In this document: positions 15,130 to 35,584 of the stretch, one piece after another
Layout of the letters: every line of letters begins with the position of its first letter
Numbering within the stretch: the first letter of the stretch is position 1
Assembly (NCBI GenBank): GCA_022425505.1
Contig: JAKMFI010000030.1
Span: 1-41,336, forward strand
Origin: Flavobacteriaceae bacterium
GTDB taxonomy: Bacteria; Bacteroidota; Bacteroidia; Flavobacteriales; Flavobacteriaceae
Reading direction: 5' to 3'
DNA: 41,336 bases
Program-made: the position numbers and the translations under genes
Notes under the pieces: generated by a model
Told to the model about the DNA's origin: nothing
Database searches by the model: none
What the model saw: only the letters and a program-made list of their open reading frames with translations

Positions 15130-15180
15130 TTACGTTCCCTGAATAGCAATGAACAAGTGGCGAATTTCGGCCTTCCTCAT
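15130..15180 (-). other. Possible 16-codon leader ORF before rpsB
   Basis: The 137-base gap between rpsI and rpsB contains a short ORF, ATG 15180 to TAA 15130, encoding MRKAEIRHLFIAIQGT and ending 12 bases before the rpsB ATG. The same stretch holds a small hairpin (GGCCGA with TCGCC, 15155-15172). No exact promoter was found in the gap; an imperfect TATAATTTG lies near 15200-15210. There is no independent evidence that the ORF is translated. Confidence 0.15.
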
Positions 15181-15254
15181 TTAGATGCTAAACTAATGGC
15201 AACAAATTATACACTAATTAATGAACTTATTGTTATGCCAATCCAAACAAACGG

Positions 15255-15641: not shown

Positions 15642-15642
15642 A

Positions 15643-16098
15643 TTACTTTAATTCGTTGATGTTAACAGCTGTTGGTTTTTGGCCATCATAAGAGTGCTCT
15701 GCTCCAGCAACAACATAGAGGTTGCGAAACAATTCAGCTCCCAATTTGTTTTTGGGTAGCATTCCTTTAATGGACTTTTCAACCAAGCGCGTTGGATTTT
15801 TTTCATGGATTTCACTAGCTGTCAAACTGCGCTGACCACCGGGATAACCTGTATGGCGGATATAGGTTTTGTTGTTCCACTTGTCGCCAGTGAGTTTGAT
15901 TTTGTCAGCATTTAGTACGATGACGTTATCACCACAATCTGCATGAGGCGTAAAGCTGGGCTTGTACTTTCCTCTCAAAAGCTTGGCAACCTTAGACGAA
16001 AAACGCCCCAAAACTTGATCCGCAGCATCAACTACAACCCACTGTTTATCAGCGTTTTTCTTGTTGATTGAGACGGTTTTGTAACTTAATGAATCCAC
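15643..16098 (-). CDS. rplM: 50S ribosomal protein L13
   Basis: L13 is an early-assembly large-subunit protein. The 151-residue product contains WVVVDAADQVLGRFSSKVAKLLRGK, DNVIVLNADKIKLTGDKW, YIRHTGYPGG and VEKSIKGMLPKNKLG, all standard L13 segments. A ten-residue N-terminal extension (MDSLSYKTVS) is common in Bacteroidetes. It heads the rplM-rpsI unit, with an exact promoter match at 16154-16183 and a strong hairpin in the short leader (16127-16149). Confidence 0.98.
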   Translation of the reverse strand: MDSLSYKTVSINKKNADKQWVVVDAADQVLGRFSSKVAKLLRGKYKPSFTPHADCGDNVIVLNADKIKLTGDKWNNKTYIRHTGYPGGQRSLTASEIHEKNPTRLVEKSIKGMLPKNKLGAELFRNLYVVAGAEHSYDGQKPTAVNINELK

Positions 16099-16126
16099 TA
16101 CTTTTTCTTTAATACTTTGTTTAGTT

Positions 16127-16149
16127 CCGTTTCAGTTCACTGAAAACGG
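16127..16149 (-). other. 5' leader hairpin of the rplM-rpsI transcript
   Basis: On the minus strand CCGTTT-T-CAG pairs with CTG-AAACGG across a TGAA loop, with one bulged T. The -7 box ends at 16154, so the expected transcription start (about 16148-16150) is at the foot of this stem. The hairpin would form the very 5' end of the mRNA. No T run follows, so it is not a terminator. It could protect the mRNA or be a site for ribosomal protein autoregulation; neither is shown by sequence alone. Confidence 0.5.
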
Positions 16150-16153
16150 GCTG

Positions 16154-16183
16154 CAAATGTACAATTAATAGAGTAAAAAGCAA
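16154..16183 (-). promoter_or_regulatory. rplM-rpsI promoter, Bacteroidetes -33/-7 type
   Basis: TTG (16183-16181) is followed after 19 bases by TACATTTG (16161-16154) on the minus strand, an exact consensus match. It sits just downstream of the polA stop and 56 bases before the rplM ATG. Confidence 0.78.
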
Positions 16184-16198
16184 ACCAAAAAAAGAAAA

Positions 16199-18997
16199 TC
16201 AATGCGCTTCGAGCCAATTCGTGCCTGTTCCCACATCTACTACGAGAGGGACTTGAAGTATGTAGGCCTGTTCCATTTCGGTTTTGATCATGCTTGTCAG
16301 CGTGTCGAGTTCGGATTTCTTGGCGTCAAATACCAGCTCATCATGCACTTGTAAGAGCATTTTGGATTCAAAATCGTTTAGTTTTTCATGGATCCGCAAC
16401 ATGGCAATTTTGATGATATCCGCAGCACTCCCTTGAATGGGCGCATTGACGGCATTTCGTTCTGACGCTCCACGAACAATACTATTTTGAGAATTGATAT
16501 CCTTGAGGTAGCGACGACGACCCAAAACGGTTTCGACATAGCCATTCTCACGTGCAAAATCGACTTGCTGACGCATATAGCTTTTTAACTGCGGATAGGT
16601 TTCATAATAGGCATCAATCAAGGCCTTGGCTTCGGATCGGTTCAAGCTGGTTTGGTTGCTCAACCCAAAAGCTGATACGCCATATACAATCCCAAAGTTG
16701 ACCGTTTTGGCTTGACTTCGTTGCTCTCGGCTCACGTCTGCCAATGCCACGCCAAACACCTTGGCAGCGGTACTGGCATGAATATCTTCGCCCTTTTGAA
16801 AGGCCTCTTGCATTTCTGTATCTCCACTTAAGGATGCAATCACACGCAATTCGATTTGTGAATAATCCGCCGCGAGTAAGACATGCTCGTCATCGCGCGG
16901 GACAAAGGCCTTGCGAACCAACTGGCCTCGCTCGGTTCGAATCGGAATATTTTGCAGGTTGGGGTGGTTGCTACTCAGTCGTCCTGTGGCTGCGACCGCC
17001 TGATTGAAAATCGTATGGACACGATCTGTTTTGGGGTTCACCTGTTCGGGAAGGGCCTCGATGTAGGTATTGCTCAGCTTTTTGACCGACCTCCACTCCA
17101 GAATATCAGCAACAATCGTATGGTCTTTTGCCAAATAAGAAAGCACATCTTCAGCAGTAGAATACTGCCCAGTTTTGGTTTTTTTGGGTTTGTCAACAAG
17201 CTTGAGTTTGTCAAACAAGATGGGACCCAATTGTTTGGGCGAAGCCAAGTTAAAGCGTTCCTCAGCTTGCTCATAGATTCGCTCCTCTAGCACTGCGGTT
17301 TCTTCTCGAAACTGAACCGCCAATTTGTCCAGATAGCCCACGTCGATACGGATACCTGCGCTTTCCATGGCTGCCAAAACATTGACCAAAGGCAATTCGA
17401 TATTGGTAAACAAATCGATAACTTCCTCGGACGCGAGTTCCGAAATAAAATGATTTTTGAGTTGAAGGGTAATATCGGCATCTTCAACAGCATATTTGGT
17501 TTGTTTGTCGATCGGCACATTGCGCATCGACCCTTGATTGGGACCTTTTTTTCCGATCAATTCGGTAATGGGTTGTGGTTTGTAACCCAAATAAGTCTCA
17601 GCCAAGATATCCATATTATGACGCATATCGGGATTGATCAGATAGTGTGCAATCATGGTGTCAAAGATGGGGGCATGAACCGCCATACCGTATTGCTGCA
17701 ACACCTTGATATCGTATTTGAGATTGTGTCCTACTTTTTCGATAGTTGGACAATGAAAAAAAGGGGTAAAATAGGCGAGTTTGGTTTCACAGGCCGTGCG
17801 ATCTTCAGGGAAAGGAAGGTAATAGCCCGTTCCTTTTTCCCAACTAAAAGCAATGCCAACGAGTTCGGCAGAGAGTTCATCAAGCCCTGTGGTTTCGGTA
17901 TCAAAGCAAACCGATTTTTGTTGCAACAACCACTCCAGTAACATTTCTTGTTCTGTTTCGGTTTGGATACTTTGGTACAGGTGATTGCTAGTCGATAAGC
18001 TTGCATACGTATCATCAACGCTGACCTCTCCTGCTCCAGGTTGATTGAACAAATCAAATACGGGTGGGGCGCTCTTTCTGGGTTCAGTAGAAGGACTTTC
18101 TGTTTGTTCCTCCTTGGAAAACAGCTTGAGAAAACGTTCTCCTAGGCGTCGAAATTCCAACTCACGAAAAATGTCTTGTACTTCCTCTGTGTTAGGTTGG
18201 GTGAGCTCATAGCTTTTTTCGTCAAAGGATATGGGTACATCCAACAAGATGCGAGCAAGTTTTTTGGACAGCACTCCGAGTGCTTTATTTTCTTCGATTT
18301 TTTCTTTGAGCTTTCCTTTGAGTTCATGCGTATTGGCCAGCAGATTTTCCATCGAACCGTATTGCGCCAAAAACTTTTTTGCGGTTTTATCTCCCACGCC
18401 TGGCAAGCCCGGTATGTTGTCAACAGAGTCTCCCATCATGCCCAAGTAGTCGATGACTTGCTCTGGATGGTCGATTTCAAATTTTTCTTTTACTTCATCT
18501 ACCCCCCAAATTTCGATTCCATTTCCCTGACGTGATGGGCGGTACATAAAAATATTTGGAGAGACCAGTTGAGCAAAATCTTTATCGGGGGTCATCATAT
18601 ACACATCAAAACCCTCTTTTTCAGCTTGTTTTGCAAGGGTTCCGATGATATCATCGGCTTCATAACCTTCCTTTTCAATCACGGGGATTTGCATGGCTTT
18701 GAGCAGGTTTTGGATATAGGGAACAGCAATTCGAATGGCTTCAGGCGTTTCGGGACGATTCGCTTTGTATTCGGTAAACATCTCTTTCCGATCGACCGAT
18801 CCGCCCTTGTCAAAAGCAACAGCCAGATAGTCGGGTTTTTCCCGATTGATCAGGTCAAACAAAGAGTTGGTAAACCCCATGATGGCACTCGTGTCCATCC
18901 CTTTGGAATTGATTCTTGGATTTTTGATAAACGCATAATACCCTCTAAAAATCAAGGCGTAAGCGTCAAGTAGGAATAGTTTTTTGTCGTTTGCCAT
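16199..18997 (-). CDS. polA: DNA polymerase I with 5'-3' and 3'-5' exonuclease domains
   Basis: PolA fills gaps and removes RNA primers during lagging-strand synthesis and repair. The 932-residue protein is full length. The N-terminal 5' nuclease domain (about 1-290) has LLDAYALIFRGYYAF, YEADDIIGTLA, TPDKDFAQLV and GDSVDNIPGLPGVGDKTA. The 3'-5' exonuclease domain (about 340-540) keeps its acidic residues: CFDTETTGLDE, GHNLKYDIKVL and YAVEDADIT, so proofreading is probably active. The polymerase domain has LLAADYSQIELRVIA (motif A), RSQAKTVNFGIVYG (motif B, O-helix) and QVHDELVF (motif C). A -7-like TATTTTTG (19015-19008) lies 11 bases before the ATG. It is divergent from the thioredoxin-fold gene. 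Confidence 0.97.
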   Translation of the reverse strand: MANDKKLFLLDAYALIFRGYYAFIKNPRINSKGMDTSAIMGFTNSLFDLINREKPDYLAVAFDKGGSVDRKEMFTEYKANRPETPEAIRIAVPYIQNLLKAMQIPVIEKEGYEADDIIGTLAKQAEKEGFDVYMMTPDKDFAQLVSPNIFMYRPSRQGNGIEIWGVDEVKEKFEIDHPEQVIDYLGMMGDSVDNIPGLPGVGDKTAKKFLAQYGSMENLLANTHELKGKLKEKIEENKALGVLSKKLARILLDVPISFDEKSYELTQPNTEEVQDIFRELEFRRLGERFLKLFSKEEQTESPSTEPRKSAPPVFDLFNQPGAGEVSVDDTYASLSTSNHLYQSIQTETEQEMLLEWLLQQKSVCFDTETTGLDELSAELVGIAFSWEKGTGYYLPFPEDRTACETKLAYFTPFFHCPTIEKVGHNLKYDIKVLQQYGMAVHAPIFDTMIAHYLINPDMRHNMDILAETYLGYKPQPITELIGKKGPNQGSMRNVPIDKQTKYAVEDADITLQLKNHFISELASEEVIDLFTNIELPLVNVLAAMESAGIRIDVGYLDKLAVQFREETAVLEERIYEQAEERFNLASPKQLGPILFDKLKLVDKPKKTKTGQYSTAEDVLSYLAKDHTIVADILEWRSVKKLSNTYIEALPEQVNPKTDRVHTIFNQAVAATGRLSSNHPNLQNIPIRTERGQLVRKAFVPRDDEHVLLAADYSQIELRVIASLSGDTEMQEAFQKGEDIHASTAAKVFGVALADVSREQRSQAKTVNFGIVYGVSAFGLSNQTSLNRSEAKALIDAYYETYPQLKSYMRQQVDFARENGYVETVLGRRRYLKDINSQNSIVRGASERNAVNAPIQGSAADIIKIAMLRIHEKLNDFESKMLLQVHDELVFDAKKSELDTLTSMIKTEMEQAYILQVPLVVDVGTGTNWLEAH

Positions 18998-22974: not shown

Positions 22975-23038
22975 CTGTGGTTTTTGGAGTTACGAATGTA
23001 CAACATTCTCATTGTGTTAAGAAATCAAAATAGAAGTA

Positions 23039-23068
23039 TTGGCATTATCAAACTTTGTTTTATTTTTG
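23039..23068 (+). promoter_or_regulatory. tRNA-Gln promoter, Bacteroidetes -33/-7 type
   Basis: TTG (23039-23041) is followed after 19 bases by TATTTTTG (23061-23068), an exact consensus match. Expected initiation is about 23073, just before the tRNA-like fragment at 23078. It lies 79 bases before the intact tRNA. Confidence 0.72.
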
Positions 23069-23077
23069 CAGCGCTAT

Positions 23078-23100
23078 TAGCCTATGGTGGTTCTGGCAAC
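23078..23100 (+). pseudogene. Degenerate 5' fragment of a tRNA-Gln-like gene
   Basis: These 23 bases align without gaps to the first 23 bases of the intact tRNA-Gln at 23147, with 18 identities, including CCTATGGTG and CTGG. Similarity stops abruptly at 23100, where a 19-base palindrome begins. No anticodon arm, T arm or 3' acceptor strand follows. It looks like a truncated tRNA copy lying at the expected transcription start of the tRNA promoter. Confidence 0.55.
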
Positions 23101-23118
23101 CTGCCTACGTCAGGCAGG
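23100..23118 (+). repeat. Perfect 7-bp palindrome, REP-like
   Basis: CCTGCCT and AGGCAGG flank an ACGTC loop. The right-hand 15 bases recur at 23279-23293 with one mismatch. Such CCTGCC/GGCAGG palindromes resemble dispersed intergenic repeats of Bacteroidetes genomes, but copy number cannot be judged here. It separates the tRNA fragment from the intact tRNA. Confidence 0.6.
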
Positions 23119-23146
23119 CACGCCAAGCCAAGAAATAGCAGTTTAC

Positions 23147-23219
23147 TGGCCTATGGTGTAACTGGTAACACGTCTGATTTTGGTTCAGAAGAGTCTAGGT
23201 TCGAGCCCTAGTAGGCCAA
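23147..23219 (+). tRNA. trnQ: tRNA-Gln (anticodon UUG)
   Basis: The cloverleaf is complete. The acceptor TGGCCTA (23147-23153) pairs with TAGGCCA (23212-23218), with discriminator A at 23219. The anticodon stem TCTGA/TCAGA encloses the loop TTTTGGT with anticodon TTG at 23180-23182. The T arm CTAGG-TTCGAGC-CCTAG is canonical. CCA is not encoded and must be added by the nucleotidyltransferase. The UUG anticodon reads CAA and, by wobble, CAG. A terminator follows directly. Confidence 0.96.
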
Positions 23220-23226
23220 CAATTAG

Positions 23227-23255
23227 AATCCCGTCTAAACAGGCGGGATTTTTTT
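23227..23255 (+). terminator. Rho-independent terminator after tRNA-Gln
   Basis: AATCCCGTCT pairs with AGGCGGGATT (one T-G wobble) around an AAAC loop, followed directly by more T. It begins eight bases after the tRNA, closing a transcription unit of tRNA fragment, palindrome and tRNA-Gln. Confidence 0.88.
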
Positions 23256-23278
23256 ATGTCTTTGTTTTGTCATGTTTA

Positions 23279-23307
23279 CCTACGGCAGGCAGGTCCCCGA
23301 AAGCGGG
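23279..23307 (+). repeat. Second partial copy of the palindromic repeat plus a small hairpin
   Basis: CCTACGGCAGGCAGG (23279-23293) matches 14 of 15 bases of 23104-23118; the left CCTG is missing, so the outer stem is lost. It is followed by CCCG-AAAG-CGGG (23296-23307). It lies in the non-coding stretch between the tRNA terminator and the hydroxylase pseudogene. Confidence 0.5.
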
Positions 23308-23352
23308 AGTCCATTGTTCCCATAGCGTACAATGCGTACCCTTACCGATGGA

Positions 23353-23371
23353 TGCCGTGTTAGGCACGGCA
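23353..23371 (+). repeat. Perfect 7-bp inverted repeat in the tRNA-hydroxylase gap
   Basis: TGCCGTG and CACGGCA flank a TTAGG loop. No T run follows on either strand, so it is not a typical terminator. A GCGTAC direct repeat separated by AAT lies just before it (about 23325-23339). Nothing else is recognisable in 23308-23424. Confidence 0.45.
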
Positions 23372-23424
23372 TAACAAAAACCCCTATTCACTGGAAACGA
23401 TTCACAAACAACGCCTATACCAAT

Positions 23425-24671
23425 TTAAGATTCGGTCTGTATCAGCATGCGTTCGCGCCACAGCATAGAGCCCAAGGCCAGACTGGAAACGACCAAATAG
23501 CCCATCCAAGCCCAGTAAAGAATAGGCGAAATAGTTGCCAATACCCACTGCAGTACAACAAAGGAGATGGCGATTCGAAACCACTCAAATCCGATACTCC
23601 ATTTGTATTGATCCATAACACTGGTGTATCCAAAAACGGCAGCAAACAAGGCCATGCCAATGGCAGTGGCATGCAAAGGGGACAAGTCCCCAAAATGGTA
23701 GAGCATCAGCAGCAGTAACCCCATGGTCGCGCAAAAGTGAAACAATGCCCAGTATGCGAGGGAATGCTTGTAGTGGGGTGCATATTTTTGCTGTTGGGTT
23801 ATGTCGGCAATCACCGTCTTTGGGTGCGATTGCTTGACATCTTCGGGTCGCCAGCCGGTGGGCATCAACCACAAGCGGAATTTGTCCCTCCACCGTTTGG
23901 TGTGCCAAGCATCGAGGGCTAGTCCCCATAGGTGCTGAAAGTTGATCCATAACGGATTCCACGACTGCACGGGCTTGAGTACGCCATATACAGGTGGCTC
24001 GTCATAGAGTTCTTCCTGAAAGGTGCCAACATGCGGTCCCATACACAAAAAATTGCACTGAGGTTTTTGTCGATATAAATCGGGTTGATGGCATGATGAA
24101 CGCGGTGCTGAGATGGGGTCACAATAATATACTCCAACCACCCGAGTTTCCCAATGTGTTGGGTGTGATACCAAAACTGACCAAAGAGATGAAGGGGCGC
24201 CAAAATGGCAATGACCTCTTGCGGAATTCCCAGAACAGCAGCGGGAATCATAAACAAGGCACCATAACCAAGAATATTGGAAATGCTTTGACGTAGTGCA
24301 CAGGCCATATTGAACTCTTCACTACTGTGGTGAATGATGTGTTGGTTCCAGAAAAAATTGATTTTGTGATTGAGACGATGCGACCAGTAAGACGCAAAAT
24401 CGATACAGATAAAGGCAGCGAGGTAAAGCCAAAGATCCGCTTCGATCTGGGTGATGGCAAGTTGTTGACTCAGCCAAGGATAGGAAATCAAAATCACAAC
24501 CAAACCAAGTGTGTCTTTAAGGATATTGGTCAGTCCCGAGCTCAAACTTGAAATGGTATCCATAAACACATAGGTTTGTTTTCCTGTCGCATAGCCATAA
24601 ATCAGCTCCGTCAGCATCAACACCATAAAGGCGGGAATGGCAATCAACAAGGCATTGGCATAAGCTTCCAT
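23425..24671 (-). pseudogene. Sterol desaturase / fatty acid hydroxylase family protein, frameshifted
   Basis: Two overlapping minus-strand frames together make one protein of about 415 residues. The first (from ATG 24671) has membrane segments and the di-iron histidine motifs SHRLNH, HHSSE and QHRVHH, then runs through NLSAIFCVWDRM before going off family. The second frame resumes with GTFQEELYDEPPVYGV, the expected continuation, and gives a membrane C-terminal region to the stop at 23425. The break is near 24028: ATGTTGGCACC where ATGTTTGGCACC would restore the frame, one missing T. Members oxidise lipids or sterols in the membrane; the substrate is unknown. All iron-ligand motifs I can see lie before the break. 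Real mutation and sequencing error cannot be separated here. A -7-like TACATTCG (24684-24677) lies just upstream of the ATG. Confidence 0.85.
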
Positions 24672-24748
24672 AGTTGCGAATGTATGAATTTCAATGAGTT
24701 AGAAAAAGTTTGTTTGGTGATTAAGAAAAAACAAACTGGCAATATGAT

Positions 24749-24779
24749 TTGGGTAAGTATTTCAAAACAATTATATTTG
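24749..24779 (+). promoter_or_regulatory. rimP-nusA-infB promoter, Bacteroidetes -33/-7 type
   Basis: TTG (24749-24751) is followed after 20 bases by TATATTTG (24772-24779), an exact consensus match, 54 bases before the rimP ATG. Expected initiation is about 24784. Confidence 0.78.
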
Positions 24780-24802
24780 CACAAACATTCTGACTTACCA
24801 TT

Positions 24803-24831
24803 GGGAGACTCTAAAAGTCCCCTTTTTTTTT
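24803..24831 (+). terminator. Intrinsic terminator inside the rimP leader (likely attenuator)
   Basis: GGG-(A)-GACT pairs with AGTC-CCC around a CTAAA loop, followed by nine T (24823-24831); the rimP ATG is at 24834. It lies between the operon promoter and the first gene, so every operon transcript must read through it. That position suggests attenuation. NusA, encoded in the same operon, acts on such terminators. Confidence 0.7.
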
Positions 24832-24833
24832 AG

Positions 24834-25304
24834 ATGGAATTTAAAGAAAACATACAGCTTTTGTTGGCGGAAGCCTTGTCATTACAATCCGATTTGTTTT
24901 TGATTGATCTACACATCGATGATCAATCGAGAGTTCAGGTGGTACTCGACGGGGACGATGGGGTTTCTTTGGAGCAATGCATCAAAGTGAGCCGCCACAT
25001 CGAACATCAACTCGACAGGGAAGTACATGACTTCTCGTTGGAGGTGAGTTCGGCAGGCGCGACCCATCCGTTGCAAATGGTACGTCAATACAAAAAAAAT
25101 ATCGGCAGAAAACTGGCGGTACATACCACAGATAATGACAATTTTAAGGCCACACTCACGCAGGCAGATGATGATCAAATCACTTTGGAGTGGAAAGCCC
25201 GTGAACCCAAACCAATCGGTAAGGGAAAACACACCGTGGTCAAACAATTGCAAGTCCCATATAATCAAATCGAAAAAGCAACCGTTCAAATCCAATTTAA
25301 GTAA
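24834..25304 (+). CDS. rimP: Ribosome maturation factor RimP
   Basis: RimP helps assemble the 30S subunit. The 156-residue product has the typical order: LFLIDLHIDDQSRVQVVLDGDDGVSLEQC in the N-terminal alpha/beta domain, IEHQLDREVHDFSLEVSSAGATHPL (the SSPG-like segment reads SSAGA), then a C-terminal SH3-like barrel (IGRKLAVHTTDNDNFKATL). Length is normal (150-155). It heads rimP-nusA-infB, the order found across bacteria, with nusA six bases downstream. The ATG lies two bases after the T run of the leader terminator, leaving no room for a Shine-Dalgarno sequence. Confidence 0.95.
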   Translation: MEFKENIQLLLAEALSLQSDLFLIDLHIDDQSRVQVVLDGDDGVSLEQCIKVSRHIEHQLDREVHDFSLEVSSAGATHPLQMVRQYKKNIGRKLAVHTTDNDNFKATLTQADDDQITLEWKAREPKPIGKGKHTVVKQLQVPYNQIEKATVQIQFK

Positions 25305-25310
25305 TACACA

Positions 25311-26543
25311 ATGGAAAATCTCGCATTAATCGAATCGTTCTCGCAGTTTAAAGATGACAAACTGATCGACCGTGTGACCCTCATGTCCATTTTGGAAGAG
25401 GTGTTTCGCAATACGCTTAAGCGTAAGTTTGGCACCGACGACAATTTTGACATTATCATCAACCCTGACAAAGGAGATTTGGAAATCTGGCGCAATCGCG
25501 TCGTGGTCAAAGACGGACAAGTCGAAGACGAAAATGAAGAAATCGAACTGAAAGAAGCGCGAAAAATTGAGCCCGACTTTGAAGTTGGTGAAGATGTGTC
25601 TGAAGAAGTAAAACTTTCGGATTTGGGTCGTCGATCGATCCTCTCCCTTCGTCAAAACCTTATCGCACGAATCAGTGAGCATGACAATACGATTATCTAC
25701 AAACAATTTATCGAACTCGTCGGGGAGATTTATACCGCCGAGGTGCACCACGTGCGCAGTCGTGTTGTGATTTTGATCGATGACGACGGAAACGAAATCA
25801 TCTTGCCAAAAGACCGTCAAATCCCGTCAGACTTTTTCCGTAAAGGCGATAGCGTTCGGGGTGTGATTGAAAGTGTAGAGCTCAAGGGTGCCAAGCCGAG
25901 TATTGTGATGTCGCGTACCGCGCCAAAGTTTTTGGAAAAACTATTTGAACAAGAAATTCCAGAAGTGTTCGATGGCTTGATCACCGTTAAAAAAGTGGTT
26001 CGCGTTCCTGGAGAAAAAGCAAAAGTTGCCGTGGATTCTTACGATGATCGTATCGATCCTGTCGGCGCTTGTGTAGGGATGAAAGGGTCTCGAATTCATG
26101 GAATTGTCCGTGAGCTTGGGAATGAAAATATCGATGTGATCAATTATACCAACAACAACCAGTTGATGATAACGCGTGCATTGAGTCCCGCTAAAATCAC
26201 CAATATGACAATCGATGAAGAAAAGAAGACCGTAGAAGTGTATATGGATCCTTCAGAAGTTTCAAAAGCGATTGGTCGAGGTGGATTCAATATTCGTTTA
26301 GCAGGTCAACTCACGGGTTATGAGATCGATGTGTACCGTGAAGGGGCAGAGGAAGATGTTGAACTTACAGAGTTTTCGGACGAAATCGAAGGGTGGATTA
26401 TCGAAGAGTTTCGCAAGGTTGGACTGGATACGGCCAAGAGTGTTTTGGAGCAAGAGGTCGAGGATTTGGTCAAACGAACGGACTTGGAAGAGGAAACCGT
26501 TGTCGAAGTCCGTAACATATTAAACGCAGAATTTTCGAGTTAA
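25311..26543 (+). CDS. nusA: Transcription termination/antitermination factor NusA
   Basis: NusA binds RNA polymerase and modulates pausing, hairpin termination and antitermination. The 410-residue protein has the N-terminal polymerase-binding domain (ALIESFSQFKDDKLIDRVTLMSILEEVF) and an S1 domain (about 135-200). Two KH domains follow, with PVGACVGMKGSRIHGIVREL and AIGRGGFNIRLAGQLTGYEIDV. A C-terminal stretch (about 355-410) resembles one helix-hairpin-helix/acidic repeat, shorter than the E. coli double repeat; 410 residues is usual for Bacteroidetes. It is the second gene of the operon, and the terminator before rimP may be its autoregulatory site. Confidence 0.97.
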   Translation: MENLALIESFSQFKDDKLIDRVTLMSILEEVFRNTLKRKFGTDDNFDIIINPDKGDLEIWRNRVVVKDGQVEDENEEIELKEARKIEPDFEVGEDVSEEVKLSDLGRRSILSLRQNLIARISEHDNTIIYKQFIELVGEIYTAEVHHVRSRVVILIDDDGNEIILPKDRQIPSDFFRKGDSVRGVIESVELKGAKPSIVMSRTAPKFLEKLFEQEIPEVFDGLITVKKVVRVPGEKAKVAVDSYDDRIDPVGACVGMKGSRIHGIVRELGNENIDVINYTNNNQLMITRALSPAKITNMTIDEEKKTVEVYMDPSEVSKAIGRGGFNIRLAGQLTGYEIDVYREGAEEDVELTEFSDEIEGWIIEEFRKVGLDTAKSVLEQEVEDLVKRTDLEEETVVEVRNILNAEFSS

Positions 26544-26557
26544 CGGATTGAAATCCC

Positions 26558-26565
26558 TATTTTTG
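26558..26565 (+). promoter_or_regulatory. Possible internal -7 element before infB
   Basis: TATTTTTG matches TAnnTTTG, 17 bases before the infB ATG in the 38-base nusA-infB gap. No TTG is found at the right distance, so a secondary infB promoter is only possible. Confidence 0.25.
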
Positions 26566-26581
26566 AACACCAATATAGAAT

Positions 26582-29209
26582 ATGTCTGAAGTCAAAACCA
26601 TACGAATCAATAAGGTTCTCCGCGAGTTAAACATTTCCTTAGACCGCGCAGTAGAGCAGTTGGGAAAACATGGTTTTGAGATAGAGGCACGCCCTACGTC
26701 CAAAATTTCACAGGCGGAATACCAACTCTTGGTCGATGCTTTTCAGACCGATCGAAACAAAAAAGAAGCTTCAGAAGAGGTCAGCGAAGAAAAACGCAAA
26801 GAAAAAGAAGCTATTCGCCAGCGAATCGAAGAAGAGCAAGAGACAAAAACCCAAGTCGTTAAAGCTCGCACCGAACTCAAGGGTCTCAGCCAGGTCGGAA
26901 AAATTGATTTAGATCCGAAACCAAAACCCAAAGAGGAAGTCAAGGTTGAAAAAAGTACGGAAACTCCCAAAGCTGAATCGACAAAAACGGAAGAGCCAGC
27001 CGCAGAGACCGTAGCAAAACCCACTCCAGAAAAGCCGACTGAGCAAAAGCAAGCTGAACCAGAAAAAACAGCCACAGCCGATACAGAAAAGGTCACTACG
27101 AAGTACAAAAAGCTGACGGGACTAAAAATTGCAGGGGACAAAATTGATCTCAAAAAGTTTGATAAAAAAGAAACAAAGCCGAGTGCCGATAACAACGATC
27201 GCAAACGACGTCGCAAACGAATCACAAAGAATACGGGCCCTGGTGTAGGAAAACAAAACAAACCAAAACCACAACGGCAAAACCAGCCCACGCACGAAGA
27301 GCCAAGCGATGAAGAAATCCAAAAACAGATTCGGGAGACTCTAGAAAAATTACAAGGTAAAACCACCAAATCAAAAGGCGCAAAATACCGACGCGAAAAG
27401 AGAGACTCCCACCGTCAAAAATCCGAAGAGGATGCAGCCCAAGTTGAGGCGGATAGCAAGTTGCTCAAGGTTACCGAGTTTGTGACTGTTGGTGAGATTG
27501 CAACGATGATGGATATCAGCTCAACAGAAATTATTTCTGCCTGTATGACGCTGGGGATCATGGTGACCATGAACCAGAGACTGGACGCAGAAACCTTGTC
27601 AATTGTGGCGGAGGAATTCGGATATGCCGTTGAGTTTGTCACTGCAGATATCGAAGAAACAATCGACGAGCCAGAGGACAACCCCGATGATTTGGTGACT
27701 CGTGCGCCAATTGTGACTGTGATGGGTCATGTCGATCACGGAAAAACTTCCTTACTTGACTATATCCGTAAAACAAATGTAACCGCTGATGAATCAGGGG
27801 GGATTACCCAGCACATTGGTGCATACAGTGTAAATTTGGAAAGCGGGCAAAAAATCACCTTTTTGGATACCCCAGGTCACGAGGCATTTACCGCCATGCG
27901 TGCACGCGGAACTCAGGTAACTGACTTGGTCATCATCGTTATCGCTGCAGATGACAACATCATGCCACAGACCAAAGAAGCGATTAGCCATGCGCAAGCG
28001 GCCTCTGTTCCGATTGTATTTGCGATCAATAAAATCGATAGCCCAAACGCGAATCCAGACAAAATCAAAGAGGGTCTATCAGCAATGAATTTACTCGTTG
28101 AAGATTGGGGTGGTAAAATTCAATCGCATGACGTTTCCGCAAAACAAGGAACAGGAATATCTGAACTTCTCGAAAAAGTAATGCTTGAAGCAGAGCTATT
28201 AGAACTTAAGGCAAACCCTTCAAAAGCTGCGCAAGGAACAGTCGTCGAGGCCTTTTTGGACAAGGGTCGTGGATATGTGTCAACCATACTCGTGCAAGCG
28301 GGTACGATGCGAATTGGAGACTATATTCTTGCGGGTCAACACAGCGGTAAAGTACGTGCAATGCAAGACGAGCGCGGTAAAGAACTGTCTGAAGCAGGAC
28401 CATCAACACCCGTATCCCTTCTTGGGCTAGACGGAGCACCCACTGCAGGCGACCGTTTCAATGTATTTGTTGAAGAAAAAGAAGCCAAACAAATTGCTGC
28501 CAAGCGCACCCAACTGGTGCGAGAGCAATCGGTTCGTACCCAACGCCATATCACTTTGGATGAAATTGGCAGACGAATTGCCCTGGGTGACTTTAAAGAA
28601 CTCAATATCATCTTAAAAGGGGATGTTGACGGCTCGGTTGAGGCATTGACAGATTCCTTCCAAAAATTATCTACCGAAGAAATTCAGGTCAATATTATCC
28701 ATAAAGGAGTTGGTGCCATCACGGAATCCGATGTGCTTTTGGCTTCCGCTTCCGACGCTATAATCGTTGGCTTTAATGTGCGACCTGTTGGTACCGCCAG
28801 ACAATTGGCAGAAAAAGAAGAAATTGATGTGCGGAGTTACTCCATCATCTACGATGCGATCAATGATCTCAAAGACGCCATGGAAGGACTCTTATCTCCA
28901 GACATGAAAGAAGAGGTTCAAGGAAACGTAGAAATCCGTGAAACCTATAAAATTTCTCGTGTGGGTACCATCGCTGGTTGTATGGTGATGGACGGCAAAA
29001 TCACACGCAATTCATTGGTGCGCATTGTGCGCGAAGGCGTTGTCGTTTACACGGGCACCCTTGCATCCCTCAAGCGATTTAAGGATGATGTGAAAGAGGT
29101 TACAAAAGGATACGATTGTGGGTTGCAAATCAAAGACTACAATGACATCAAAATCGGAGACACCATCGAGGCCTATATCGAGGTAGCTGTCAAGAAAAAA
29201 CTCAAATAA
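26582..29209 (+). CDS. infB: Translation initiation factor IF-2
   Basis: IF-2 is the GTPase that brings initiator tRNA to the 30S subunit and promotes subunit joining. The 875-residue protein starts with an IF2_N-like helical module ([20 protein letters not shown]). A long Lys/Glu/Pro-rich linker follows (about 60-285), then a second IF2_N module ([20 protein letters not shown]). The G domain has [16 protein letters not shown] (G1, near 380), [10 protein letters not shown] (G2), [16 protein letters not shown] (G3), INKID (G4) and SAKQG (G5). C-terminal barrels include the fMet-tRNA-binding C2 region ([18 protein letters not shown]). The length is at the large end of normal because of the linker. 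It ends three bases before the convergent SPOR gene. Confidence 0.98.
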
Positions 29210-29212
29210 AAC

Positions 29213-29584
29213 CTAGGGCTTAAGCAAAAAGGCCTCAGGAAATTTCACCCGTAATGTATCAAGCGTTTGGATTCCCTCCAGGCGTGTTGCGAATTTACCA
29301 ACACGGATTTTGTAGTTCGGAGTTTCAAAAGAGAGTTTGGCATAGCGACTTGGAAAAGCATTCGAAAAAGAGTCCAAATAGACTTTTGCTGCCTCGTAAT
29401 TTCCAGAAAAAATTTGAATGGTGTACTGGTTTTTTGCCAATCGCTTTTTGTCCAGAGACAACTTGCGTTCGAGCACATCGTCAAGATTTTGAGGGGTTTT
29501 AACAACCAATGCGTTGTCTTGTGCGTGAAGTGAAAACGCAAATACAAACAAAATCACAAAACAAATGGGCTTTAAATACAACAT
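29213..29584 (-). CDS. Secreted SPOR-domain protein
   Basis: The 123-residue product starts MLYLKPICFVILFVFAFSLHAQ, a standard signal peptide with cleavage expected after HA-Q, so it should be periplasmic. The C-terminal half (YTIQIFSGNYEAAKVYLDSF to YKIRVGKFATRLEGIQTLDTLR) matches the SPOR fold, which binds denuded septal peptidoglycan glycans. ATG 29584 is preferred over an in-frame TTG at 29593. It is convergent with infB (three-base gap) and divergent from the act operon. The placement between infB and the cytochrome operon seems conserved in Flavobacteriaceae (recalled). Confidence 0.85.
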   Translation of the reverse strand: MLYLKPICFVILFVFAFSLHAQDNALVVKTPQNLDDVLERKLSLDKKRLAKNQYTIQIFSGNYEAAKVYLDSFSNAFPSRYAKLSFETPNYKIRVGKFATRLEGIQTLDTLRVKFPEAFLLKP

Positions 29585-29743
29585 AGTTTGCAAATAAAAG
29601 ATTGCTGGGAAATTCCTGCAATTTTTTCTCGAAATTTGTTTAATTGTCTCAAAACAAAAAGACTATAATATATTGAATATCAGTACTTTAAATTAGTAAT
29701 TTAGAATAAATATAAATTTACAATTCAAGTAGTTCTAAAGTTT

Positions 29744-29771
29744 TTAAAATGGGGTTTGTAACGTAATTTTG
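29744..29771 (+). promoter_or_regulatory. Putative act-cox operon promoter
   Basis: TAATTTTG (29764-29771) matches the -7 consensus; the -33 half is TTA (29744-29746) with a 17-base spacer. Expected initiation near 29776 gives a leader of about 42 bases with a small hairpin (CAAGG 29785-29789 with CCTTG 29796-29800). The 224-base gap from 29594 is otherwise very AT-rich without other recognisable sites. Confidence 0.5.
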
Positions 29772-29817
29772 TAGATGTAAAAAACAAGGTATTTTCCTTG
29801 ACTACCAAAACCAAAAC

Positions 29818-31095
29818 ATGACCAGGTTTTTTTGCCTAAATGTTCCCCAAGTCCGCGTTCTACTTTCCTTCGTGTTGGCTATTGCCTTCACCCTTCCAAC
29901 TTACGCACAAGAAGCAGATGTTGATAAAGGGAAATCCCTTTTCAATATGAACTGTGCGGCCTGTCACAAGCTCAACAAACGCGCTGTCGGACCTGCTCTA
30001 GCGGGGGTTTCCCAGAAATACGAAAAAGAATGGCTGTATTCTTGGATCAAGAACTCCATGGCGATGGTCAAGTCTGGCGATCCACAAGCCGTTGCGATTT
30101 ATGAGGAGTACAACAAGTCTGTGATGACTGCCTTCCCGCAGTTGAGTAACGAAGACATTGACAATATTCTCGCTTATACCGACTACACACCACCTGCACC
30201 TGCCGTACCAGCTGCAGTAGTAACCACAGCCGCTAGTGGTGGAGACAATACCACCTCAATCTTGCTTTTGGGAGTGTTGGTGTTGGTGCTTGTCATCCTT
30301 GTGGTGATGCTCTTTTTGGTGACCAAAACGCTCCGAAAAATTGCGATTGCAAACGGGATAGAAGTCGAAAAAACCAGACCTATACGCAAACCGCTTTGGG
30401 AAGTCTATATCAACAATTCCTTTTTGGTGTTTAGCACGGTGATTATCTTGCTCTTTTCGAGTGCTTTCTTTGCCTATGGATATCTGATGCAAGTTGGTAT
30501 CGATCAAGGATATATGCCTGTACAGCCGATCCATTACTCTCACAAAATCCACTCTGGAGACAACGAAATCGAGTGTAAGTATTGCCATTCCTCTGCCCGT
30601 GTTTCTAAGCATTCAGGAATTCCTTCTCTCAACGTGTGTATGAACTGTCACATGAACATTGCAGAGTACAATGGGGAAGAAGATTTGGAAAAAGGATATA
30701 CAAAAGAATTCTACACAAACGAAATCAAAAAGTTGTACAAAGCCGTTGGTTGGGATGAAGAAAATCAGCGTTACACAGGCGATACCCAACCTGTGAAATG
30801 GGTACGTATCCACAACCTGCCCGACTTTGTGTACTTCAACCACGCACAGCACGTTGATGTTGCTGGCATTGACTGTCAAAAGTGTCATGGGCCAGTGGAA
30901 GAAATGGAGATCATGTATCAGCACTCCCCACTCACAATGGGATGGTGTATTAACTGTCACAGAGAGTCGAATGTCGATTTGGAAAACAATGAGTACTATG
31001 AGAAAATCCATGCGGAACTCTCAAAAAAATATGGTGTTGAAAAACTCACAATCGCCCAAATGGGTGGTTTGGAGTGTGGAAAGTGTCACTACTAA
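29818..31095 (+). CDS. actA: Alternative complex III subunit ActA, multiheme cytochrome c with extra N-terminal monoheme domain
   Basis: ActA is the heme-rich electron carrier of alternative complex III, the quinol:cytochrome c/oxidase oxidoreductase of Bacteroidetes. The 425-residue protein has a signal peptide (to about TYAQ) and a monoheme domain with CAACH near residue 47. An Ala/Pro-rich linker, a helix (about 141-168) and a second helix (about 200-222) follow. The periplasmic part has five CxxCH sites: CKYCH (about 253), CMNCH, CQKCH, CINCH and the C-terminal CGKCH. That is six heme c sites in one chain; the pentaheme part is classic ActA and the N-terminal cytochrome is an extension. 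It heads the operon; actB follows after 12 bases. Confidence 0.92.
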   Translation: MTRFFCLNVPQVRVLLSFVLAIAFTLPTYAQEADVDKGKSLFNMNCAACHKLNKRAVGPALAGVSQKYEKEWLYSWIKNSMAMVKSGDPQAVAIYEEYNKSVMTAFPQLSNEDIDNILAYTDYTPPAPAVPAAVVTTAASGGDNTTSILLLGVLVLVLVILVVMLFLVTKTLRKIAIANGIEVEKTRPIRKPLWEVYINNSFLVFSTVIILLFSSAFFAYGYLMQVGIDQGYMPVQPIHYSHKIHSGDNEIECKYCHSSARVSKHSGIPSLNVCMNCHMNIAEYNGEEDLEKGYTKEFYTNEIKKLYKAVGWDEENQRYTGDTQPVKWVRIHNLPDFVYFNHAQHVDVAGIDCQKCHGPVEEMEIMYQHSPLTMGWCINCHRESNVDLENNEYYEKIHAELSKKYGVEKLTIAQMGGLECGKCHY

Positions 31096-31107
31096 TCTAA
31101 AGCAACG

Positions 31108-34100
31108 ATGGCAAACCAAAAGAACTATTGGAAAAGCACAGCGGAGTTAGACAACAACAATGCGTTTGTCGAGGATCTCAAAGGGCGTGAGTTTGTTGAA
31201 AAACTTCCTGAAGATGCCTTTTTGGGTGATGATCAGGTGATGAATGATTCCAAAACAAACAGACGAGATTTTCTCAAATATGTTGGTTTTAGTACTGCCG
31301 CCGCCTCGTTAGCTGCTTGTGAGGGTCCTGTTCACAAGTCCATTCCCTATGTCGTGCAACCTGAAGAGATTCGCCCAGGAATTTCAAATTTTTACGCAAC
31401 CACCATTGCGGATGGCTTTGATATGGCAAGCATTCTCGTAAAAACTCGGGAAGGAAGACCAATCAAAGTTGAAAACAATACAGATGCTCCTGCCAGCTAC
31501 CGCGCGAATGCTCGTTTACAAGCTTCTATTCTGTCGCTATATGATACTTTCCGATTACAAGGCCCTGCCCAGTCGGGAAGTCCTGTCAGTTGGGCAACAC
31601 TTCTCGGACAAAGCCGTCAACAACTCGATAATTTACAAGCCGAAGGCGCACAAGTGGTCTTACTGACCCAGTCGTTTGCCAGCCCTTCAACGCAGGCGTT
31701 GATCGACCGACTTACCGCCAAGTACGACAACATCAAGCACATTGCCTATGATGCGGTTTCATCATCCCACGCTTTAGATGCCTTTGAAAAGGCCTATGGT
31801 CAGCGTGCACTGCCCACCTATGACTTTTCAAAAGCGGAAACAATCGTTTCATTTGATGCAGATCTTATTGGAGACTGGCAAGGTGGAGGACATGCACCAG
31901 GGTATGTCAAAACTCGCGTTCCTGTCAAAAAGAACGGAAAAGCAAAAATGTCAACCCATTTCCAGTTTGAAGCAAACATGACGCTTTCTGGAGCCACTGC
32001 TGACAAGCGCGTGCCCATGTCTGCTGCCCAACAGAAACAAGTACTTGCAGCGCTTTATTCCGAACTGACAAACGGACAAGCAAGTGGAAGTGGAGAGCAA
32101 GCCATTCAAGATATGGCCAAAGTGACCGCCAAGTATTTGCGTAAAGCAGGTAAAAAAGCAGTTGTAATTACGGGTTTACCAAGTGTGGAAGCCCAACGCA
32201 TTGCACTTGCAATCAATCAAAAATTAGGGTCTGTTGTGATCGATACCCAACACACAACGACCATCCGCCAAGGCAGCGCAAACCAACTCACCCAGCTTGT
32301 TGATGATCTCAACAGCGGAGCGGTTCAAGGGATTATCACTGCTGGTGTAAATCCAGTATATACCCTTGCCAATGGCGAACAGTTTGCTGCGGGTCTAAAC
32401 AAAGCCAAGTTCTCCTTGTCTTTCAGTATGAAAAACGATGAGACGGCATCCAAAGCACAATGGGTTGCAGCAACGCCTCATTATCTCGAATCTTGGGGTG
32501 ATGTGGAATTCAAAACCAATCACTTCGGACTTACACAACCTACGATCCGTCCTTTGTTTGACACCAAACAATTTCAGGATGTATTACTCACTTGGCTCGG
32601 AAAAGACACAAGCTACAGAGACGAGTTGCGATCCTATTGGGAACAAAACATCCTCAATGGCAAGTCGTGGAATAAGGCCTTGCATGACGGATTTTACGTT
32701 GGGAACTCTTCATCAAAACAAAATCAGTACCGTGATGCAGTTGCCGATGCAGTGCGTTCAATCTCTGCGGCGACACAAGAAGGATACACTCTCAACCTCT
32801 ACACCAAAACAGGAATTGGAGCCGGCCAACAAGCCAATAACCCTTGGCTTCATGAACTTCCCGATCCGATCACTCGTGTGACTTGGGACAATTATCTCAC
32901 CGTATCCAAGTCGGATGCTGATGCACTCGGTCTGTGGAATGAAACCCAGTCAGATGGTTCGCTAAATGGGGGTCTTGCAAAAATTACGGTTGGGTCCTCT
33001 TCACTAACAGTGCCTGTGCTCATTCAGCCCGGTCAAGCCAAAGGAACCGTTGGATTGGCATTTGGCTATGGCAAGCAATCTGGGGTGAAGTCTGAAATGC
33101 AAATAGGAGCCAATGCCTATAAATTATATAATGACTTCTCAAGCGTTCAGCCAGTAAGCATAGAAGCGGTAGATGGTACACATGAGTTTGCTTGTACCCA
33201 GTTGCAAAATACCTTGATGGGTCGGGAAGACATCGTCAAGGAGACCACACTCGAAATTTTTAACACCAAGGACAGAAATGATTACAATGCCGTTCCTGTG
33301 GTGAGCAAAAACCATATCGAAACTTTAGTCACCTCTCCAGAGGTTGATATTTGGGATCAGTTTGACCGTTCAGTTGGACATCACTTCAACTTATCGATTG
33401 ACCTGAATGCCTGTACGGGTTGTGGCGCATGTGTGGTGGCCTGTCATGCCGAAAACAATGTGCCAGTTGTTGGAAAACGAGAGATTCGCAAGTCGCGCGA
33501 TATGCACTGGCTGCGGATTGACCGATACTACTCCTCAGAGGATACTTTTGAGGGCGACAAAAATACGGTAAACGAAATCAGTGGATTGGGAGAGTCCCTG
33601 ACGACCTTTAGTTCTTTGGAAGAGCCATCGGCGAATCCACAAGTAACCTTCCAACCGATTATGTGTCAGCATTGTAACCATGCACCTTGTGAAACGGTTT
33701 GCCCAGTGGCAGCGACTTCGCATGGTCGTCAAGGTCAAAACCACATGGCATACAACCGTTGCGTAGGGACCCGTTATTGTGCCAATAACTGTCCGTATAA
33801 AGTCAGACGTTTCAACTGGTTTTTATACAATCACAACGACGAGTTTGATTTCCACATGAATAACGATTTGGGTCGGATGGTCCTCAATCCAGATGTTGTT
33901 GTTCGTTCGCGTGGGGTGATGGAAAAATGTTCGTTGTGTATTCAAAAAACACAAAAAACAATTTTGGATGCCAAGCTAGAAGGACGTGATATTGCTGATG
34001 GGGAATTCCAAACGGCATGCTCAAGCGCATGTGCAACAGGCGCCATTACCTTTGGTGACATCAACGACAAAACAAGTCGGGTTGCCAAGTCTTTGGAAAG

Positions 34101-34188
34101 TGATCGAATGTATCACCTTTTGGAAAGCGTGGGGACAAAACCCAATGTGCAGTACCAAGTAAAAGTTAGAAATACAGAGACATCATAA
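31108..34188 (+). CDS. actB: Alternative complex III subunit ActB, molybdopterin-oxidoreductase-like iron-sulfur protein
   Basis: The 1,026-residue protein has a Tat-like signal embedded after a 50-residue N-terminal stretch: NRRDFLKYVGFSTAAASLAAC, twin Arg at 52-53. Residues about 75-750 resemble a molybdopterin oxidoreductase fold; ACIII ActB is known to lack the Mo cofactor. The C-terminal part is an NrfC/PsrB-like ferredoxin domain with Cys clusters CTGCGACVVACH (about 769), CQHCNHAPCETVCPVA, CVGTRYCANNCPYKVRR and CSLC, plus CSSACATGAITFGD, giving ligands for about four Fe-S clusters. It passes electrons from quinol oxidised at ActC/ActF toward the ActA hemes. The Cys after SLAA may be lipidated, as reported for Flavobacterium ActB (recalled). 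Confidence 0.93.
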   Translation: MANQKNYWKSTAELDNNNAFVEDLKGREFVEKLPEDAFLGDDQVMNDSKTNRRDFLKYVGFSTAAASLAACEGPVHKSIPYVVQPEEIRPGISNFYATTIADGFDMASILVKTREGRPIKVENNTDAPASYRANARLQASILSLYDTFRLQGPAQSGSPVSWATLLGQSRQQLDNLQAEGAQVVLLTQSFASPSTQALIDRLTAKYDNIKHIAYDAVSSSHALDAFEKAYGQRALPTYDFSKAETIVSFDADLIGDWQGGGHAPGYVKTRVPVKKNGKAKMSTHFQFEANMTLSGATADKRVPMSAAQQKQVLAALYSELTNGQASGSGEQAIQDMAKVTAKYLRKAGKKAVVITGLPSVEAQRIALAINQKLGSVVIDTQHTTTIRQGSANQLTQLVDDLNSGAVQGIITAGVNPVYTLANGEQFAAGLNKAKFSLSFSMKNDETASKAQWVAATPHYLESWGDVEFKTNHFGLTQPTIRPLFDTKQFQDVLLTWLGKDTSYRDELRSYWEQNILNGKSWNKALHDGFYVGNSSSKQNQYRDAVADAVRSISAATQEGYTLNLYTKTGIGAGQQANNPWLHELPDPITRVTWDNYLTVSKSDADALGLWNETQSDGSLNGGLAKITVGSSSLTVPVLIQPGQAKGTVGLAFGYGKQSGVKSEMQIGANAYKLYNDFSSVQPVSIEAVDGTHEFACTQLQNTLMGREDIVKETTLEIFNTKDRNDYNAVPVVSKNHIETLVTSPEVDIWDQFDRSVGHHFNLSIDLNACTGCGACVVACHAENNVPVVGKREIRKSRDMHWLRIDRYYSSEDTFEGDKNTVNEISGLGESLTTFSSLEEPSANPQVTFQPIMCQHCNHAPCETVCPVAATSHGRQGQNHMAYNRCVGTRYCANNCPYKVRRFNWFLYNHNDEFDFHMNNDLGRMVLNPDVVVRSRGVMEKCSLCIQKTQKTILDAKLEGRDIADGEFQTACSSACATGAITFGDINDKTSRVAKSLESDRMYHLLESVGTKPNVQYQVKVRNTETS

Positions 34189-34198
34189 AGAAAAAACT

Positions 34199-35584
34199 AT
34201 GGCCTCGCATTACGAAGCACCAATACGAAAACCGCTAGTTACAGGGAACAAATCCTACCACGATGTGACGGTTGATATCGTTGCACCCGTTGAGGGGAAA
34301 GCGAATAAGCAATGGTGGATTGTTTTCAGCATCGCTTTGGTTGCCTTTTTGTGGGGAATCGGCTGTATTATTTACACCATCTCAACAGGAATCGGCGTTT
34401 GGGGACTCAACAAAACCGTCGGTTGGGCTTGGGATATTACCAACTTTGTATGGTGGGTTGGAATCGGACACGCAGGAACCTTAATCTCTGCTGTACTTCT
34501 GCTATTTCGTCAAAAATGGCGTATGGCAATCAACCGATCAGCGGAGGCAATGACCATTTTTTCCGTGATCCAAGCGGGACTGTTCCCCATTATTCACATG
34601 GGACGCCCTTGGTTGGCGTATTGGGTACTGCCCATTCCAAATCAATTTGGATCATTATGGGTCAACTTTAACTCTCCACTGCTTTGGGATGTATTTGCGA
34701 TTTCGACTTATTTGTCGGTATCGCTCGTATTCTGGTGGACGGGACTTTTGCCTGACTTTGCCATGATTCGAGATCGTGCGGTCAAGCCATTTCAAAAGAA
34801 AATCTACGGGCTACTGAGCTTTGGCTGGAGTGGACGTGCCAAAGATTGGCAACGCTTTGAAGAGGTGTCTCTTGTGTTGGCAGGACTGGCAACGCCGCTT
34901 GTACTTTCGGTACACACCATTGTATCTTTTGACTTTGCAACCTCAGTCATTCCGGGCTGGCACACGACGATTTTCCCGCCCTACTTTGTCGCTGGGGCGA
35001 TTTTTTCCGGCTTTGCGATGGTGCAAACCTTATTGATTATCATGCGAAAAGTCATCAACCTTGAAAACTATATTACCATTCAGCATATCGAACTGATGAA
35101 TATTGTGATTATGATTACAGGTTCTATTGTTGGGGTGGCCTATATCACAGAACTGTTTATTGCTTGGTATTCGGGAGTTGAATACGAACAATATGCCTTC
35201 CTCAATCGAGCAACAGGGCCTTATTGGTGGGCGTATTGGGCGATGATGACTTGTAACGTATTCTCTCCACAGTTTATGTGGTTTAAAAAATTGCGAACGA
35301 GCATCATGTTCTCGTTTATCATTTCCATTGTGGTCAATATCGGGATGTGGTTTGAGCGCTTTGTGATCATTGTGACTTCCCTACACCGAGACTACCTCCC
35401 ATCATCTTGGACTATGTTTTCACCAACCTTCGTAGATATTGGGATATTTATTGGAACAATTGGGTTCTTCTTTGTCCTGTTTTTACTCTATGCCCGGACC
35501 TTCCCCGTGATTGCGCAGGCAGAGGTCAAATCGATATTGAAGTCCTCGGGTGACAAATACAAAAAAACAACAAGCGATGAGTAA
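34199..35584 (+). CDS. actC: Alternative complex III subunit ActC, NrfD-like quinol-oxidising membrane protein
   Basis: ActC is a polytopic NrfD/PsrC-type membrane subunit holding the menaquinol site next to ActB. The 461-residue protein has about ten membrane segments, starting WWIVFSIALVAFLWGIGCII. Conserved residues include WWVGIGHAGTLISAVLLLFRQKWR, FPIIHMGRPWLAYWV and SVHTIVSFDFATSVIPGWH, features of the NrfD family in ACIII. It starts ten bases after actB and its last eight bases overlap actD, indicating coupled translation. Confidence 0.94.
   Translation: MASHYEAPIRKPLVTGNKSYHDVTVDIVAPVEGKANKQWWIVFSIALVAFLWGIGCIIYTISTGIGVWGLNKTVGWAWDITNFVWWVGIGHAGTLISAVLLLFRQKWRMAINRSAEAMTIFSVIQAGLFPIIHMGRPWLAYWVLPIPNQFGSLWVNFNSPLLWDVFAISTYLSVSLVFWWTGLLPDFAMIRDRAVKPFQKKIYGLLSFGWSGRAKDWQRFEEVSLVLAGLATPLVLSVHTIVSFDFATSVIPGWHTTIFPPYFVAGAIFSGFAMVQTLLIIMRKVINLENYITIQHIELMNIVIMITGSIVGVAYITELFIAWYSGVEYEQYAFLNRATGPYWWAYWAMMTCNVFSPQFMWFKKLRTSIMFSFIISIVVNIGMWFERFVIIVTSLHRDYLPSSWTMFSPTFVDIGIFIGTIGFFFVLFLLYARTFPVIAQAEVKSILKSSGDKYKKTTSDE

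Follow-up and report, generated by a model that had tools for sequence, protein, structure and literature searches.

Terminators ahead of the rimP-nusA-infB operon have been described in several bacteria. In the main text of Naville and Gautheret (2010; PMC2965389), the rimP-leader is presented as the most ubiquitous attenuator, a short terminator with a GGGc...gCCC stem and a U run, located 4–130 nt from the gene at the head of rimP-nusA-infB, with no visible antiterminator and with NusA as the best candidate effector. NusA stimulates intrinsic termination, at about 75% of the intrinsic terminators of Bacillus subtilis, and in that species it controls its own synthesis through leader termination (PMC12288461, citing Mondal et al., 2016), as the sequence-only reading of the present DNA had noted for Bacillus; the rimP leader there is 180 nt long (PMC2965389). 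In Streptococcus agalactiae (gbs0413-gbs0418), RNA-seq placed termination 31 nt downstream of the transcription start of the rimP-nusA-infB operon, and feedback by NusA was suggested (PMC4448216). Upstream of rimP, the metY-nusA-infB operon of Escherichia coli carries the terminators t1 and t2, and NusA helps to regulate its own expression (PMC6511841). Closest in phylogeny is Flavobacterium psychrophilum, where a structured 5′ element without an Rfam hit lies upstream of rimP and is also present in other genera of the Flavobacteriaceae (PMC9723704). Evidently, feedback of NusA on the operon that encodes it is a long-standing idea, with arguments from E. coli and a report for B. subtilis, and for the rimP-leader it was proposed already in 2010, so that it is less new than the sequence-only reading implied.

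The locus described here lies in a stretch of 41,336 nucleotides from a member of the Flavobacteriaceae, which is called the window in what follows (Table 1). The -7 element is an exact copy of TAnnTTTG, the flavobacterial -7 consensus (PMC9723704), and is separated by 23 nt from a terminator-like hairpin; nine T, the dinucleotide AG and the ATG of rimP follow in that order. The predicted leader RNA measures approximately 47 nt up to the T tract and folds with -8.5 kcal/mol, of which the bare hairpin gives -7.3 kcal/mol. The layout of promoter, stem, nine T and start codon that had been read from the letters is found as described, with the refinement that the stem, which had been written as GGG-GACT/AGTC-CCC, is interrupted by a bulged A.

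Table 1. Features of the rimP-nusA-infB leader and its surroundings in the window.
Feature	Position	Strand	Basis
tRNA-Gln	23147..23220	+	tRNA scan
Separate terminator-like hairpin directly 3′ of tRNA-Gln	23225..23252	+	terminator scan
Divergent upstream gene, fatty acid hydroxylase family	23919..24671	-	PF04116
-33 element TTTG	24748..24751	+	sequence; 20 nt 5′ of the -7 box
-7 element TATATTTG (exact TAnnTTTG box)	24772..24779	+	sequence
Predicted transcription start	near 24784-24786	+	sequence
Terminator-like hairpin GGG-A-GACT/CTAAA/AGTC-CCC, bulged A at 24806	24803..24822	+	sequence, folding
Nine-T tract, predicted termination zone	24823..24831	+	sequence
rimP	24834..25304	+	PF02576 1.1e-10, PF17384 1.6e-09
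nusA	25311..26543	+	PF08529 2e-31, PF13184 3.1e-25
infB (IF2)	26582..29209	+	PF11987 7e-42

Judged by its sequence, this element belongs to the known rimP-leader kind of attenuator. It shares with it the position in the 5′ region of rimP-nusA-infB, a GGG...CCC terminator hairpin followed by a U run, and the lack of an antiterminator or of a larger conserved element in the leaders tested. It differs from it in that the full GGGc...gCCC signature is not present, the GGG being followed by the bulged A and then by a G-C pair, in that its T run lies flush against the ATG, and in that Rfam, whose family of this name is RF01770, gives no match. No rimP-family match was obtained in the window at the gathering score, nor around the leader at E-values up to 10, nor in six relatives (L013, L040, L052, L060, L063 and L110) at E-values up to 1. 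The main text of Naville and Gautheret contains no word starting with Bacteroid or Flavobacter, and its supplementary species lists may include the phylum (PMC2965389). With S. agalactiae the window shares a short leader with predicted termination before rimP-nusA-infB, but the case of that bacterium is supported by RNA-seq and belongs to a different phylum (PMC4448216); in B. subtilis the evidence is experimental and the leader has 180 nt, whereas here it is drawn from sequence and the leader has some 47 nt. Terminators ahead of rimP and a role of NusA in its own expression are common ground with E. coli, whose operon differs by its several promoters, a tRNA gene within the transcription unit and RNase III processing sites (PMC6511841). 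The F. psychrophilum element concerns the same gene in the same family as the window, although the available text of PMC9723704 neither calls it a terminator nor ties it to NusA.

Taken on its own, the hairpin of the window leader is not beyond chance: shuffles of the leader fold equally well in 21 of 200 cases (z -1.19). A simple terminator scan of positions 23001-31000 listed 8 terminator-like sites against 9.2 in shuffles, which is the chance level, and the leader hairpin was not among them because the stems of that scan permit no bulge. Nor is a hairpin near a start codon rare in this genome, since 19 of 138 sampled genes (20 short contigs and the window) carry some hairpin with a T run at most 60 nt from the start codon; rimP alone combines it with a preceding TAnnTTTG box. 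In a relative, G036, the corresponding numbers are 23 and 2 of 289 genes. These two genes, at about 14890-17395 (-) of L175 and 11156-11708 (+) of L187, are candidate attenuators in their own right.

Conservation changes this picture. Under a strict rule (hairpin of -7 kcal/mol or lower, with a T run, at most 60 nt from the start), a terminator-like element precedes rimP at 9 of 10 loci of the window's own genus, 36 of 37 loci of other Flavobacteriales and 51 of 57 loci of the class and phylum, the sample for the remaining orders and classes having been hand-picked (60 loci fetched, from 198 genomes); dinucleotide shuffles satisfy the same rule in 3/100, 18/370 and 70/570 cases, respectively. 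The exceptions are as follows: the stem of L003 is just under the cut-off, L046 has a short stem with a 10-nt loop, and the six class and phylum loci comprise five hairpins located 68–140 nt from a start placed by script and one misplaced start. The order promoter, hairpin, T run and start codon is common to nearly all the relatives examined, and each of the 46 Flavobacteriales rimP leaders tested has an exact TAnnTTTG box 5′ of its hairpin. The canonical flavobacterial leader can be written as GAGGGGAC-loop-GTCCCCTC, followed by TTTTTATA. The sequence-only reading had made the persistence of stem and T run upstream of rimP in relatives the check on its proposal; both are kept, far above shuffles. 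These comparisons support the view that a terminator-type leader has been kept across the Bacteroidota, and once conservation is counted the putative element of the window is far beyond chance.

The pairing of the stem has been maintained while its letters changed: in 27 canonical leaders, 99.5% of 216 cells are paired and the covariation score is matched by none of 500 shuffles; changes on both sides occur at just two pairs, which 33 of the 500 shuffles also achieve. In a wider Bacteroidota set of 108 hairpins, 81 share a core of three G-C pairs in succession, G being on the 5′ side; the pairs inside this core vary but remain paired, the fourth being G-C in 54, A-U in 14 and C-G in 10. Of the remaining 27, four have a G-U pair within the core, and several lineages show inverted stems, CGCCC/GGGCG for example. 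This inverted form was seen in L103, L106, L107, L113 and L117 (families f29 and f47), so the GGG-first order is not universal, and its occurrence argues against a sequence-specific reading of GGG. The set of 108 is without ten rows, namely L032-L037, which duplicate own-genus contigs, and L046, L068, L098 and L111, in which the automatic pick was not the leader hairpin (as judged by eye for the last three). The MAFFT alignments A1, A2 and A5 mis-registered some stems and were excluded from the pair counts. A covariance model (R1) built from the 27 canonical leaders gave no match in 13 genomes of the window's genus, 3 of which have no NusA match either. Its matches with E ≤ 1e-3 lie directly upstream of nusA in 30 of 32 cases, but 27 of these 30 are training rows and therefore indicate just that few copies of the motif occur in other parts of the genome.

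Beyond promoter, hairpin and T run, no further parts were recognised. From the predicted transcription start to the hairpin the 46 leaders offer a median of 18 nt (range 8 to 25), and in only two of the 46 does this segment surpass 95% of shuffles in its pairing with the arms of the hairpin, which is the chance level and gives no sign of an antiterminator. Complete ATG or GTG frames of at least four codons occur in just 12 of the 46 leaders, and in the window no ATG or GTG lies between the predicted transcription start and rimP; a conserved leader peptide is therefore ruled out. The sequence-only reading had seen neither a leader peptide nor an alternative antiterminator, and on both counts it holds. 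A TTG-started frame of 10 codons does run across the hairpin (24801-24833), with its TAG right before the rimP ATG, and is probably due to chance. Reading of the relatives' leaders disclosed no conserved motif or alternative structure outside the three known parts. This last observation bears on the proposal, improbable in our judgment, that the leader attenuates in response to something other than NusA, for example NusG, an RNA chaperone, the state of ribosome assembly or nucleotide levels at the U tract. Such a signal would suit an operon that joins factors of transcription with those of translation, and short hairpins terminate with an efficiency that depends on several factors; nevertheless, it would have to be sensed by a leader in which no such motif or structure was seen.

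Two architectures may be distinguished among the 46 Flavobacteriales leaders, one with a strong stem and a short T run, the other with a weak, bulged stem and a long T run flush with the start codon. Flush leaders (T run at most 3 nt from the ATG) number 12; all of them are bulged or mismatched, with a mean of -7.9 kcal/mol and 8–9 T, whereas none of the other 34 is bulged, their mean is -15.0 kcal/mol and their longest run averages 5 T. The stem of the window, at less than half of that mean energy, is among the weakest. Nine of the flush leaders come from one genus, the window's own (L006 excepted), and the other three (L028, L038 and L039) are near it on the tree (support 86); their clustering therefore implies at most a few events.

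The flush arrangement is an argument for a role of the hairpin in translation, either by blocking the binding of ribosomes near the ATG or by being bound by RimP or another protein: in the window just 2 nt separate the T run from the ATG, and the weaker, bulged stems are found in all 12 leaders of this kind. Still, the spacer between T run and start measures 6 to 21 nt in the other 34 leaders, the hairpins lying 68–140 nt away in some relatives are more distant yet, and a long T run is a mark of termination. Moreover, autoregulation by RimP cannot account for hairpins that are kept where rimP has been lost (see below). We regard an action on translation as very improbable.

The exception within the genus is instructive. 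In G003 (L006/L033), similarity to the window starts 3 nt before the rimP ATG; the 3.2 kb from this breakpoint through rimP and nusA are 93% identical, and the 1,020 bases upstream of it are without detectable similarity to the window. The unrelated upstream DNA still has TATATTTG, GGAAGGGGACTTGGTCCTC and a T run, that is, a canonical leader, and by this comparison the form of the leader has been retained in spite of an exchanged sequence.

A natural experiment is provided by genomes in which nusA stands without an adjacent rimP. In profile searches of mostly draft genomes, rimP was detected in 150 of 196 Flavobacteriales and 278 of 296 Bacteroidia genomes, and NusA in 195 of the 196 Flavobacteriales. 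Leaders were read in 11 of the 46 Flavobacteriales genomes without rimP, the rest, G278 aside, belonging to family f16, in many of which a contig starts at nusA, and in 16 of the 18 Bacteroidia genomes without rimP. G278 and G643 (contig ends) and G430 (no NusA match) were excluded as rimP-less loci, and very small genomes (0.3–0.6 Mb) were kept out of the testable set. At nusA the strict test asked for a hairpin of -7 kcal/mol or lower with a T run, at most 160 nt upstream; 22 of the 25 testable loci without adjacent rimP pass it, against 72 of 500 shuffles. G166, with a short perfect GGGC/GCCC stem of -6.6 kcal/mol, misses the cut-off and is counted as a 23rd locus, beside G016, G041, G054, G254, G045, G047, G269, G252, G431, G449, G481, G620, six genomes of family f67 and four of family f105. 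G506 and G221 have weak irregular stems only (-6.0 and -6.3 kcal/mol) and were not counted; in G221 rimP is present elsewhere in the genome.

Among the loci that keep the hairpin are G016, from the genus that is sister to the window's own (SH-aLRT 98), and, in family f15, genus g156, which stands beside rimP-bearing genera on the tree. The clearest cases are G016 and G269. In G269 the nusA leader consists of TATATTTGCA, then GGAGGGGACTAATGTCCCC and T5; its family holds rimP-bearing genera, and the one leader read there, L044, is of the same type. Stem sequences differ in G045, G620, G449 and G481, and in G045, G047, one f67 genome and G620 the hairpin lies 107–154 nt from the start. On the NusA tree the presence of rimP needs about 11 changes, and the starred branches force 7 (75 rows), or 6 without the small-genome row L205, counts that come from quick trees with no bootstrap and a long-branch warning and that are blind to loss versus gain. 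The eight loci from genomes of 0.3–0.6 Mb (L123-L129 and L205) have neither rimP nor a GC-rich hairpin in the nusA leader; judged by size alone, these genomes look endosymbiont-like.

By gene order, the nusA of rimP-less genomes sits at the same locus as the operon of the window in at least some cases. In five rimP-less loci (L012, L144, L054, L055 and L130, scanned for tRNA because one was visible there) tRNA-Gln lies upstream of nusA on the same strand, and it is found upstream of the operon in the window as well. In L012, the hairpin is followed by ATGGAATTTAA, which resembles the rimP start of the window's genus and is perhaps a remnant of a lost rimP. The tRNA directly upstream in these five relatives is also what would speak for the hairpin being a 3′ terminator that belongs to an upstream gene or to tRNA-Gln, but this explanation is hardly credible. 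In the window the neighbouring gene is on the opposite strand, so the leader hairpin cannot end it; the promoter intervenes, and a terminator of the upstream gene is ruled out. The tRNA-Gln of the window has a terminator-like hairpin of its own, and L013 has a canonical leader in a 4.2-kb locus without any tRNA.

The converse separation was met once, in G235, where infB is on another contig, far from the contig ends, with its own TATATTTG box. The 250 nt upstream of this detached infB contain no hairpin with a T run (a single case), and the rimP-nusA leader of the same genome retains its hairpin. Since rimP-less loci mostly keep the hairpin and the detached infB is without one, the comparison, which is one of position, suggests that it is nusA that the element follows, and not rimP or, on the strength of a single case, infB. 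Autoregulation by RimP is ruled out by the hairpins kept at rimP-less nusA loci. The cases of rimP loss separate nusA from rimP as the gene served by the leader, and do so without an experiment. The staying of the leader with nusA where rimP was lost is the new evidence of this work, and no report of it was found in the searchable literature, which mostly lacks subscription papers and supplements.

The best explanation of these observations, to which we give a probability of about 0.7, is that the element is a minimal transcription attenuator in which premature termination stimulated by NusA would serve as autoregulation. RNA polymerase would start near 24785, transcribe approximately 47 nt and then either stop at the hairpin and U tract (24803-24831) or continue into rimP-nusA-infB, read-through yielding RimP, NusA and IF2. 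NusA, the second product of the operon, would stimulate hairpin-dependent pausing and termination, in such a way that higher NusA would lead to more early termination and to lower expression of nusA. We infer both that termination takes place at this site in vivo and that the NusA level sets the read-through. It must be noted that NusA stimulates many terminators, and therefore nothing marks this leader as specially tuned to NusA. The most serious competitor, unlikely in our view, is a real terminator independent of the NusA level, which would remove a fixed share of transcripts and turn a strong promoter into a modest output of the operon. Conservation of a hairpin does not by itself show regulation, and no antiterminator or sensor is visible. 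On the other hand, a weaker promoter would presumably achieve the same more cheaply, yet the hairpin is kept phylum-wide and through most losses of rimP, and control by NusA has been reported in B. subtilis (PMC12288461).

Autoregulation by NusA leads to a broader proposal, which we hold somewhat less firmly than the attenuator itself but still consider probable: that the name rimP-leader is a misnomer, and that in the Bacteroidota the element is a nusA homeostat. It would have persisted through at least six separate changes in the presence of rimP (about 11 on the tree) and through one complete replacement of the DNA upstream; it is absent at the one lone infB and in the very small genomes examined, and the two architectures are possibly tuned to the same NusA set point. 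To our knowledge, attenuation has been little studied in this phylum. The rimP-less loci, where the leader sits directly in front of nusA, are ready-made test loci, and if the mechanism is confirmed it would count among the simplest attenuators, consisting of a promoter, a hairpin some 20 nt further on and a T run; the sensor would be the termination factor itself.

A last observation concerns the other end of the operon. In the window, 3′ of infB (29818-35584), Pfam matches reveal a succession of cytochrome c, Fe-S and NrfD-like proteins, which we take to resemble an alternative complex III cluster.
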